The position numbers and the translations under genes are program-made. From Candidatus Bipolaricaulota bacterium (lineage in GTDB: Bacteria > Bipolaricaulota > Bipolaricaulia > Bipolaricaulales > Bipolaricaulaceae), in NCBI GenBank assembly GCA_014360995.1, contig JACIWL010000004.1, positions 34,206 through 81,447 of the forward strand: a DNA stretch of 47,242 nt, written 5' to 3'. Every line of letters begins with the position of its first letter. Positions within the stretch are counted from its first letter, which is position 1. Of this stretch, positions 13,544 to 18,789 are shown one piece after another. The notes beneath the pieces were generated by a model. It did no database searches, was not told the DNA's origin, and saw only the letters and a list, made by a program, of their open reading frames with translations.

Positions 13544-13571
13544 ATTATAGCACGGGTTACACCTCTTCCAA
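13544..13571 (-). promoter_or_regulatory. Putative promoter of the sugar ABC transporter operon
   Basis: TTGGAA (13566-13571), a 16-base spacer and a perfect TATAAT (13544-13549) on the minus strand lie about 90 bases upstream of the binding-protein ATG. The -35 lies in the last codons of rng. The resulting 5' UTR of about 80 bases carries a good AAGGAGGTG ribosome site, unlike the near-leaderless genes elsewhere in the window. Confidence 0.6.
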
Positions 13572-14795
13572 CTCTGAAAGCAAGGCGGAAAGGGATTCGC
13601 CTTCCTTTTTGCGGGTGATTTCCACAAGACCAAGTTTGGTAATCTCGATGAAGTCCGCGGGAACCCGGTCTTTTTTGAGCTCCTCTTTTAAGGTGGCGAT
13701 GACCTTTTCTTTATCCTTTTCGTTTTGCATATCCACAAAGTCCACGATGATGATGCCCGAGATCTTCCGGAGCCGAAGAAGCCGGGGGATGAGGCGCGCC
13801 GCCTCTAAATTAGTGTTGAGGATGGCCGCAGCCTGGTTTTTGTGCTTCACATCGGAGCCAGTGTTCACATCGATGGCAGTGAGGGCCTCCGTCTCGTCCA
13901 CGGTGATGAACCCTCCTCCTTTGAGGGGGATCTTCCGCTGCATGGCCTTGGCCAGCTCCTCCTCCACTCCGTAGCGGACAAAAAGAGGCACGGTCCCCTG
14001 GTAAAGGCGCACCCGGCTCTTCAGCTTTCCCAAATGGAGGTAATCCAAAAACTCCAGGATGTCTTGGTAAGTGGCCTCGTCGTCGACGATGAGGGAGTCC
14101 ACATCCTCCAAAAACCGGTCGCGCACAACGCAGCGCACAAGATCCGGCGGGGCGTAAAGGAGCTTTGGCGGGGAACTTTTCTCCGCCAGTTCCTGGATCC
14201 CCTTCCAGAGACCAAGGAGATATTTAAAATCGCGTTCTAGATCGTCGCGGGAAGCATAGAGGGCGGCAGTGCGAGCGATAAGTCCTGCCCCTTCCGGTTT
14301 TAGCTCGTAAGCGATCTGGCGGAGGCGGCGGGCCACCTCCCGGTCCTCGATGCGCCGGGAAATGCTCACCCTCTCCTCGGTAGGGAGGAACACCCAGTAT
14401 CGCCCCGGAAGGCTCAATTTGGTGGTGGCCTGGGGGTTCTTCTCCCCCACCTCCTCCCGGCGCACCTGGACGATCAGGCTTTCCCCGGGCTTGAGAACCT
14501 TTTGGATGGGGGGGAGTCCCCGGCTAGGCTCCACCCCTTTGGCGCGCAGAATCCCCTCATGAAGTTCGTGGGCGGCCAGGAAAAGCGGCTTTTTCTCCCC
14601 CACCTGGACAAAGGCCGCACCCATCCCGGGAAGGACCGTCTCCACTTTCCCTTTGTAGATATTGCCTACGAGGGGACGGCGGTCGGGAAGCTCGAAATGG
14701 ACCTCCACAAGCTCGCCGTCCTCGATGATGGCCACCCGCTTTTTCGGGCCCTGGGGTGTAGTCTCCACCGTGATGAGAATGTGATTCCCCTTGAT
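13557..14795 (-). CDS. rng: Ribonuclease E/G family protein with apparent AUC start, lacking the Zn-link
   Basis: A 412-residue endoribonuclease of the RNase E/G family, which matures rRNA and degrades mRNA. An S1-like region (LVGNIYKGKVETVLPGMGAAFV) and the DNase I-like core are present, with the catalytic metal Asp pair in AIDVNTG and IIVDFVDM. No ATG, GTG or TTG lies at the expected start. A perfect AAGGAGGT is followed 7 bases later by ATC (14793-14795), which opens the conserved N-terminus (KGNHILITV). The next GTG, at 14768, would remove the first conserved strand. The protein ends at ITRKKEGESLSALL..., just before the usual CPxCxGxG Zn-link, so the tetramerising cysteines and small domain are absent. 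It follows glyS by 26 bases. Confidence 0.88.
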   Translation of the reverse strand: MKGNHILITVETTPQGPKKRVAIIEDGELVEVHFELPDRRPLVGNIYKGKVETVLPGMGAAFVQVGEKKPLFLAAHELHEGILRAKGVEPSRGLPPIQKVLKPGESLIVQVRREEVGEKNPQATTKLSLPGRYWVFLPTEERVSISRRIEDREVARRLRQIAYELKPEGAGLIARTAALYASRDDLERDFKYLLGLWKGIQELAEKSSPPKLLYAPPDLVRCVVRDRFLEDVDSLIVDDEATYQDILEFLDYLHLGKLKSRVRLYQGTVPLFVRYGVEEELAKAMQRKIPLKGGGFITVDETEALTAIDVNTGSDVKHKNQAAAILNTNLEAARLIPRLLRLRKISGIIIVDFVDMQNEKDKEKVIATLKEELKKDRVPADFIEITKLGLVEITRKKEGESLSALLSELEEV

Positions 14796-14821
14796 CGTGC
14801 CGACCTCCTTGCTCGTCGTGC

Positions 14822-16858
14822 CTAACCTGGCACCACAAGCCGGCTGAGGTCGGCCACCTGGAGGAACAGGCGAGAAAGAGAAAGGAGGAAGCCCAGGCGG
14901 TTTTCCCTGAGATCCCGCTCCTCGCACATCACCAGGACCTGGTCAAAGTAGCGATCGATGGGATCCTTCAGGGCGAGGAGGGCCTCCAAGGCCTCTTTAG
15001 GGCGGTGTTCGGCCATGGCCTTCTCCACGCGCTCTTTGGCCAAAAGGTAGGCCTGCCAAAGCCCGCGCTCCGCCTCCTCCTCAAATAGCTCGGGGTTAAA
15101 GCCCTCGATCTCGTACCCCCGGGTGATATTGCGCACGCGGCCGAAGGCCAAGGCCAGGTCAGCAATTTCCTTTCGCCCCACCAAGGCCTGCAGGGCCTGG
15201 GCCCGCTCCCAGACCCCTAGAAAATCCCCGTCCATTCGGGAAAGCACGGCTTCCGCCACATCGTAAGAAATGCCCCGTTCCTCCAGCGCCGACCGCAGAC
15301 GCTCCCATAGGAATTCTTTCACCGCTTCCGCCGGTGTGGTGCCAGGATAGGCGTCCCGGACCTCCTCGATAACCCCAAAGAGATCAAGCCGGAGGCCCTT
15401 TTCCAAAATGAGCCTGATCGCGGCACTCCCCCGCCGGCGCACACCATATGGATCCCGCGAACCGGTGGGAATCTCCCCCACAAGGATGGGGCCCATCACC
15501 CCATCCAATTTGTCCGCAAGGCTCAGGGCCAGGCCCAACGGAGTTTCCGGAAGTTCATCGCCCTTGCCCCGCGGCCGGACATGCTCAGCAATGGCTTTGG
15601 CCACCTCTTCCCGCTCCCCATCCAAACGGGCATAAATTCCGCCCATCTCCCCTTCAAGCTCCGGGAATTCCCGCACCATCACGGTAAGAAGATCGGCTTT
15701 GGAGAGGTACGCCGCGCGATCCAAAAGCTCCCAAGGAAGGCAAAGCTCCCGCGCCAAAACCCGGCAGATCCGGCGGATGCGCTCCACTCGATCCCAAACG
15801 GTGCCTAGCCGGGCCTCGTAAACAATGCCCTTGAGCTCGGGGACGCGACTTTCCAAAGTTTTTCTGCGGTCTTGCCCGAAGAACTCCTGGGCATCATGGA
15901 GGCGGATGCCCACCACCCGCTCGTAACCCTGGCGGATGACCTCCGCATCCCCTTCTCCTTCGGCAAAGCCCAAAAAGACCTCGGCGATCTTTCCCCCGCG
16001 GGTGAAGGGCACGAATTTCCCCTCCTCCCGCAGGGCCGCCACCACCACCGCCTCGGGGAGCTCCAGGAACTGGCGGGGGATGCGGCCCACCACGGGCCTG
16101 GGCCACTCCGTCTGCCCAAGGATGAGGGTCCAAAGCTCCTCGGAGAGGGCGGCCTTAGCCCCGTACTCTTCCTCCACGGCGCGGATGGCCCTCCGCAGAA
16201 CCTCGGCCCGCTCCGCCGGATCAACAAGGACATGGGCCTCCCGGAGCCTGGTTGTGTACTCCTCCGGCTGGGACAAGTTAAGGGGGTGCCCGAAAAACCG
16301 GTGCCCGAAGGTTTGACGGCCCGCGGAAACCCCGGCCAGCTCCACGGGCACCACCTTCCCCCCAAACAGGACCACCACCCAGCGGATGGGGCGGAGGAAG
16401 GCCATTCCCCCGTTCCAGCGCATGAACTTCGAGCACGGGATTTCCCGCACGGCCTGGGGAACGATTTCCCGCAGGATCTCCTCCGCCGGCCGGCCCGGCC
16501 GCTCCACGCGCAGGAAAAGATATTCCTTCTCCCCTACCTTTCGGCGCACCAATTTTTCTGGGCCTGCCCCATAGCGGCGGAGAAAGCCCTGAGCGGCGGG
16601 AGTCAAATTCCCTTGAGAATCCAAACCCGCGGAGACCGCGGGACCGCGGATCTCCTCCACCGCGTCCTCCTGCCTTTCCGCCACGTCCGAAATGAGGAGG
16701 GCGAAACGCCTGAGGGTCCAAAAAAGGCGGGCCTCTCCATGGGGGAGCCGGGCCTCTTTCAGCCCAAAAAGAAGGTTTTCCCGAAAGCTTTGGGCGATGT
16801 TTTCCGCCTCTTCAGCGGGCAAATCTTCCACGCCGATCTCAACGAGGAGTGCCGGCAC
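14822..16858 (-). CDS. glyS: Glycyl-tRNA synthetase beta subunit
   Basis: A 678-residue beta chain of the bacterial alpha2beta2 glycyl-tRNA synthetase. The N-terminus reads [14 protein letters not shown] and the FLRPIRW motif plus an HD-type region are visible. GTG at 16858 is chosen because GGAGGTG lies just upstream and the conserved LLVEIG follows at once; it sits 20 bases inside glyQ. Earlier in-frame codons only read glyQ in another frame. The beta chain carries tRNA recognition. It is part of the run from metG to rng. Confidence 0.95.
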
Positions 16859-18057: not shown

Positions 18058-18252
18058 CTATACGCCAAGGAGCCTGCGCATGATCTTTTTATTGGCGCCG
18101 GTGACCTCCACCGGCCGGCGGGCGGCGCGCTTGTATTGCCCGCGCTTTTTGGAAAGTTTATGCACGTACCCGGCCTTGCGGTGGAAAATGCGCCCCGTCG
18201 CCGTCACCTTGAACCTTTTCGCCGAAGCTCGATGGGTCTTCCCCGGTTTCAT
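18058..18252 (-). CDS. rpmI: 50S ribosomal protein L35
   Basis: A 64-residue basic protein starting [20 protein letters not shown], matching L35 in length and sequence. Its ATG overlaps the infC stop as ATGA, and AAGGAGGTG precedes it. It stands in the conserved infC-rpmI-rplT block. Confidence 0.98.
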
Positions 18253-18767
18253 GAGCCACCTCCTTTTCGAGAAATGGGGGCAAGGACGATCTCCAAATTC
18301 CGGCCGCGTTCCGTGGCATCTTGCTCCACCTTGGCCAGATCCTGGGTGAGCTCGGCCACCCGGGCCAAGAGCTCCTTGCCCTTTTCCATATGGATGATCT
18401 GGCGACCCTTGAAGAACACGACCGCCCGCACCTTCATCCCCTCTTCCAAAAACTCCCGGATCCGCTGGACCTTGGTCCGAAAGTCGTGCTCCCCGGTCTG
18501 GATGGTGAACTTGACCTCCTTAACTTTACCCGCCTTGGGCTGCTTTTTCTCCCGTTTTTGCAGCTGATAGCGGTACTTGCCAAAGTCCACAATTTTGCAG
18601 ACCACGGGATTTGCCTCCGGAGCGACCTCCACAAGATCCAGGCCTCGCTCTCTGGCCAAAGCTAACGCCTTTTCCCGGGGGACAACCCCCAAATTCCGTC
18701 CGTCACTATCAATGAGCAAAACCTCCTTGGCCTGTATCTGCTCGTTTATGCGAAACGCCCGCTTAAT
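18249..18767 (-). CDS. infC: Translation initiation factor IF-3 (AUU start)
   Basis: A 172-residue IF-3 that keeps 30S subunits apart from 50S and rejects non-standard start codons. An ordinary start at 18719 (TTG) would give a protein without its N-terminus. Upstream in frame, after GGAGGG, an ATT at 18765-18767 opens KRAFRINEQIQAKEV, the conserved IF-3 N-terminus. Starting infC at AUU lets IF-3 repress its own synthesis in Escherichia coli, and the same is inferred here. nadD ends 22 bases upstream; rpmI overlaps the stop. Confidence 0.95.
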   Translation of the reverse strand: MKRAFRINEQIQAKEVLLIDSDGRNLGVVPREKALALARERGLDLVEVAPEANPVVCKIVDFGKYRYQLQKREKKQPKAGKVKEVKFTIQTGEHDFRTKVQRIREFLEEGMKVRAVVFFKGRQIIHMEKGKELLARVAELTQDLAKVEQDATERGRNLEIVLAPISRKGGGS

Positions 18768-18789
18768 GGACCTACCCTCCTTTCCTCGC

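Follow-up and report, generated by a model that had tools for sequence, protein, structure and literature searches.

A conserved ACG triplet is the probable start codon of an RNase E/G-family gene in a family of Bipolaricaulota

Organization of the rng locus

The window analysed here is a stretch of 47,242 nucleotides from a Candidatus Bipolaricaulota bacterium (assembly GCA_014360995.1, contig JACIWL010000004.1, positions 34,206 to 81,447). The closest relatives that carry a name are metagenome-assembled genomes of Bipolaricaulota (Acetothermia). On its minus strand lie, in this order and closely packed, the genes infC, rpmI, rplT, glyQ, glyS, and rng. The shared strand and the tight packing make it plausible that rng and infC are part of one operon. 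The rng gene is predicted to encode a protein 412-413 aa long. When the frame is read from ATC (P0002), this protein scores 398.3 bits (E 3.9e-119) against TIGR00757, which is above the curated cut-off of 325.95. It also matches PF10150 with 308.6 bits and can be aligned with E. coli RNase E chains. Against the RNase G equivalog NF008689 it scored 340.6 bits, short of the cut-off of 594, so the name rng is used here as a family-level label only. The locus contains the following features.

13557..14798, minus strand: rng, encoding an Rne/Rng-family ribonuclease of 413 aa with ACG as the first codon
14822..14824, minus strand: stop codon of glyS, 23 nt upstream of the ACG
14803..14810, minus strand: Shine-Dalgarno sequence AAGGAGGT of rng, retained as AAGGAGG or CAGGAGG throughout the genus
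14796..14798, minus strand: ACG, most likely where rng starts; spaced 5 nt from GGAGG and found in 36/37 genomes of the family
14793..14795, minus strand: ATC of the original prediction, probably the second codon; Ile, Leu, or Ser in relatives
14766..14768, minus strand: GTG, the first canonical codon further downstream, without conservation as a start in relatives
14925..14927, minus strand: in-frame GTG within glyS, an unlikely upstream start that relatives speak against
18249..18767, minus strand: infC (IF3), beginning with ATT at 18767-18765; serves within the window as the control for a gene with a non-AUG start
18776..18783, minus strand: Shine-Dalgarno sequence AAAGGAGG of infC, preceding the ATT start

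The original prediction for this locus was that rng starts with AUC behind a perfect Shine-Dalgarno sequence, in parallel with an AUU start of infC. The Shine-Dalgarno sequence is indeed in place at 14810-14803 of the minus strand and is followed by the seven bases CGGCACG and then by ATC at 14795-14793. The Shine-Dalgarno sequence AAGGAGGT occurs 13 times in the window, compared with 1.85 occurrences expected from shuffles. The in-frame triplets 3' of the glyS stop are GGC ACG ACG AGC AAG GAG GTC GGC ACG ATC, a listing that confirms the claimed absence of ATG, GTG, and TTG between that stop and the ATC. The next canonical codon is GTG 14768-14766, as had been stated, and a protein started there would lose the residues ILIT of its first strand. 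Upstream, the rng frame is open as far as GTG 14927 in glyS, which the original prediction did not mention. The AUU start of infC was also correctly described, with ATT following its own Shine-Dalgarno sequence.

Conservation of the ACG triplet within the family

The window's family is represented by 40 genomes, and we compared the start of rng among the 37 that have this region, which were used for the N-terminal counts; whole-gene codon statistics were taken from 29 full or nearly full genes. The triplet before the ATC position is ACG in 36 of the 37 genomes and TCT in one, and 11 of the 12 genera have ACG. By contrast, the ATC position itself is occupied by CTC (15 genomes), ATC (6), CTT (5), ATT (3), CTG (3), ATA (2), AGT (2), or AGC (1), which amounts to CTN in 23 genomes, ATN in 11, and AGY in 3. 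Within the window's genus it is ATC in six of eight genomes and ATA in the other two. The free drift between CTN, ATN, and AGY indicates that this position behaves as an internal codon, mostly for isoleucine or leucine.

The rest of the gene provides a measure for the ACG. There are 71 fourfold-degenerate columns in which the residue is retained in at least 95% of the 29 genes, and in only one of these, the ACG column, is the third base invariant (28/28). The runner-up reaches 27/28 and the median is 62%. When all 202 conserved columns are considered, whatever the residue, seven contain a single codon: the ACG, TGG (two columns), ATC (two), ATG (one), and TAC (one). The 520 threonine codons elsewhere in rng are divided among ACC (295), ACG (163), ACT (34), and ACA (28). 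Codons 2-5 retain K/R-G-N-H with synonymous variation across the family, showing that translation is already under way there.

The invariance of the ACG next to a drifting ATC position means that the ACG acts like a start codon and the ATC does not. A single C-to-T change would convert the ACG to AUG, yet AUG is found in its place in none of the 37 genomes. This points to selection in favor of a weak start. Judging from these comparisons, rng in the window most likely starts at ACG 14798-14796. A non-AUG start behind a strong Shine-Dalgarno sequence is thus a part of the original prediction that stands, while the codon itself is probably the ACG directly upstream of the proposed AUC. Initiation at this ACG had been named beforehand as one of the outcomes that would tell against AUC.

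The distance from GGAGG to the ACG is 5 nt in most of the family, shortened to 4 nt in much of genus g5. This agrees with a start at the ACG, as the spacing for rpmI and rplT of the window is 6 nt. The Shine-Dalgarno sequence is strong in the window and weaker in some genomes of g5, g12, and a sister family (f2). In one genome of the window's family, G017, the ACG is gone and ATT is found 4 nt past GGGAGG. We placed this genome on a tree of 37 rows (29 from the family and 8 from the outgroup), in which weak forks were disregarded. G017 is nested within the family; its position as sister to g5 has support of 86/58 only, within a fully supported group of 18. Its start appears to have been replaced in situ by a different weak codon.

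Non-canonical starts across the class

In a class-wide sample of 100 genomes, rng was matched in 92 and examined in 89. The three rows excluded were G010 (C-terminal piece only), G081 (a weak match of 36%), and G096 (gene cut by a contig end). In 61 of the 89 genomes, ATG, GTG, and TTG are all absent from the stretch that runs from the in-frame stop upstream to the first conserved strand. A canonical codon is present only at least 15 codons upstream of the strand in 17 and near it in 11; this count is mechanical and makes no assumption about the codon used. Canonical codons are absent from this interval in all 27 genomes of f2 and all nine of a third family (f3). The homologous position in f2 is ATC in 15 genomes and ATT in 12 (G078 was moved by one codon by hand for these counts), and the triplet before it is AAA, GAA, CAA, GAG, or GCG.

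The other starts were assigned by eye. Five genomes of f3 have ACG, 9-10 nt after GGAGG, three have ATA or ATC (a codon at 3 nt leaves this assignment ambiguous), and one has ATT. ATT was found in three genomes of f6, where one further genome has ATG and one is ambiguous, in two of f7, and in one of f9, and ATC (or GTT) in one of f8. Canonical starts were assigned in f4 (TTG, 2/2) and f5 (ATG, 5/5). In a hand count of the 89 genomes, 80 starts are non-canonical, 8 are canonical, and 1 is unassigned. The use of AUC, AUU, and AUA elsewhere in the class suggests that selection keeps a weak start rather than one particular codon. This conservation gives good support to a lineage-wide weak start that would throttle synthesis of RNase E/G. 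A sequencing error, which had been raised as an alternative, is excluded because the identical triplet is present in many separately assembled genomes.

Control genes

As controls we used infC, rng from outside the Bipolaricaulota, and neighboring genes. A match to infC was obtained in 91 of the 100 genomes and 90 were examined, G097 being excluded as a split match. In the window's family the infC start is ATN in 37/37 genomes (ATT 20, ATC 10, ATA 7). It varies in the third base and is never CUN, in contrast to the ATC position of rng. In most of the class the infC start (L172-L261) is ATN-like, which independently confirms for Bipolaricaulota the textbook rule on infC. The parallel between the two genes in the original prediction holds up across the class. 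The infC match in seven genomes (G040, G042, G068, G076, G080, G085, and G088) contains one in-frame stop, perhaps marking an extension beyond the C-terminus.

Outside the Bipolaricaulota, rng has an in-frame ATG, GTG, or TTG near the N-terminus at 53 of 53 loci; at L078, L079, and L081 the nearest start is at codon -9. Canonical starts were found for the neighboring genes rpmI (15/15), rplT (73/73, with 15 within four codons), obgE (22/22), and glyQ (28/30), with some genomes counted twice because two collections were used. The two remaining glyQ relatives have GTA at the aligned start, and the surrounding four or so codons include no canonical one.

We also searched eight genomes of the window's genus for other genes with ACG starts. 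A Shine-Dalgarno sequence with ACG occurred 144 times and the reversed pattern 119 times, so the pattern is hardly enriched. By eye, only the rng string recurs in this list as a candidate start (7/8 genomes; G004 has CAGGAGG), and the other frequent string in the genus contains ATG.

Upstream genes and tRNAs

The upstream gene was inspected at 19 loci. In genera g1, g10, g2, and g11 it is glyS, separated from rng by a gap of 23-202 nt. In several other genera of the family, and in f2, f3, f7, and f9, a frame overlaps the start of rng. This frame was confirmed as folK at L013 and L122 and looks like folK by eye at the others. The ACG is kept both behind a gapped glyS and with an overlapping folK, indicating that the weak start does not depend on which gene precedes it. 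We rejected the idea that the ACG is retained owing to an overlapping upstream gene because the sampled g1, g10, and g2 genomes have no overlap. In several lineages folK shares about 20-30 nt with the start of rng, and the two genes could be translationally coupled in them; the window's genus does not allow such coupling. At about positions 1790-1900 of L270, in the contig of a relative, a stretch of N flanked by repeated sequence looks like a scaffold gap.

The initiator-like tRNAs carry the anticodon CAT. A dedicated initiator tRNA with anticodon CGU was considered and rejected: there were four CGT pattern matches in 40 genomes, of which the three that were checked are not tRNAs by ARAGORN and the fourth is that of G023. 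G021 has a tRNA-Thr(CGT) (23 of 30 loci scanned; 46 matches in all), and the ACG thus has its elongator tRNA too.

Alternative start codons

An alternative is that rng starts at AUC 14795-14793 and that the ACG is kept for another cause, such as sequence context. The ATC of rng lies 8 nt past GGAGG, which is also the spacing of the infC ATT in the window. The shared 8 nt means that spacing by itself is not decisive. An AUC start also agrees with the ATC or ATT at the homologous position throughout f2 and with the ATC and ATA of the window's genus. Since f2 starts at this position, a start at the ACG means that the window's family must have shifted its start by one codon. Conservation of ATC or ATT in close relatives had been suggested as a check of the AUC start, and 26 of the 37 genomes of the family have CTN or AGY there, whereas infC keeps ATN in every one of them. 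An AUC start would also leave the invariant ACG without a reason, and the ATT of G017 stands where the ACG usually does relative to the Shine-Dalgarno sequence. We consider an AUC start to be rather unlikely.

It is very improbable that the N-terminus has been mis-set and that rng has a normal start, either at a GTG or TTG upstream in glyS or at GTG 14768 downstream. The in-frame GTG 14927 does exist, and GTG is common at codon +9 or +20 in the family. Nonetheless, the interval between the stop and the first strand holds no canonical codon in most of the class, and an upstream start in glyS is ruled out by the relatives as a general start. Position 9 in the 37 genomes is GTG in 20, GTC in 7, GTT in 4, GTA in 4, and another codon in 2, a variability for which a start there was rejected, and conservation at the protein level extends over residues 2-8. 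The use of GTG 14768 by relatives, another alternative named with the original prediction, is likewise not supported.

C-to-U editing of this kind is not known from bacteria. Conversion of the ACG to AUG in the mRNA, as happens to ACG codons in plant chloroplasts (PMC9845219), is hardly credible since it would leave unexplained both the AUC, AUU, and AUA of other families and the ATT of G017.

Translation of rng from the ACG, 5 (sometimes 4) bases after the Shine-Dalgarno sequence, is the reading that we hold to be likely for the window's family.

Possible control by IF3 and relation to known weak starts

ACG is a very poor start codon in E. coli. On the ACG of rng, the ordinary initiator tRNA (anticodon CAU) would pair with a mismatch at the middle base, and we infer methionine at this codon, so that the protein would begin with fMet. 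Initiation would be weak and the yield low. IF3 would reject such a codon, leading to low synthesis of RNase E/G that would be lower still when IF3 is plentiful, and infC, with its AUU start, would respond to IF3 alongside rng. IF3 control of rng can reasonably be inferred. Alternatively, the weak start may set a low and constant level of the RNase with no link to IF3. The same sequence facts fit this function equally, but infC, the well-studied case of this type, responds to IF3, and we regard a constant level as possible though somewhat doubtful. With IF3 control, rng would be a second gene read by IF3 beside infC in the Bipolaricaulia. RNase E/G would be tied to initiation fidelity through a class-wide weak start that shifts among AUU, AUC, AUA, and ACG, and seldom AUG, with ACG as the natural start of a Shine-Dalgarno-led gene over 11 genera in one family. 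We put this broader proposal forward tentatively.

In E. coli and other bacteria, infC has an AUU start and is autoregulated. Like infC, rng has a non-AUG codon after a strong Shine-Dalgarno sequence at a working distance, retained lineage-wide, and most of its loci (61/89) have no canonical codon at the N-terminus. The start of infC stays within AUN, which is also the case for rng in f2 (ATC or ATT, 27/27) but not in the window's family (ACG, 36/37). There the codon has a middle-base mismatch, and the gene encodes an RNase rather than IF3. The E. coli gene pcnB was reportedly found by Binns and Masters in 2002 to start with AUU. Like rng, pcnB acts in RNA metabolism, and it is limited by a weak start as rng would be, but pcnB is a different gene and its codon is not ACG. 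In Staphylococcus aureus, ccpN (AUA) and cvfC1 (AUU) have conserved non-canonical starts with an extended Shine-Dalgarno sequence and a lower reporter yield, according to one report (PMC13009471). Unlike in rng, these codons are AUN, and one product represses transcription while the other is a small protein. The same codon as in rng is used as a start by chloroplast genes and viruses of eukaryotes, although the chloroplast ACG, in a difference from rng, can be edited to AUG. Eukaryotic initiation proceeds by scanning without a Shine-Dalgarno sequence. In the titles and abstract beginnings of the open-access literature, ACG starts are described for chloroplasts, mitochondria, viruses, and eukaryotic mRNAs; we found there neither a conserved natural ACG start in bacteria nor any account of how rng starts in Bipolaricaulota.

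With an ACG start, rng would be a new gene among those with weak starts and ACG a new codon among them, as infC, pcnB, ccpN, and cvfC1 are all AUN. If true, an ACG start kept over a family would add to the natural start codons one that is neither NUG nor AUN, and a middle-base mismatch would be retained by selection and not merely tolerated. Coupling of RNase E/G, which acts in mRNA decay, to IF3, which discriminates among start codons, would, if true, form a simple circuit linking translation and decay. ACG is, as far as we know, not a start codon in the bacterial code table, and automatic annotation is therefore likely to mis-set the N-terminus of rng class-wide.
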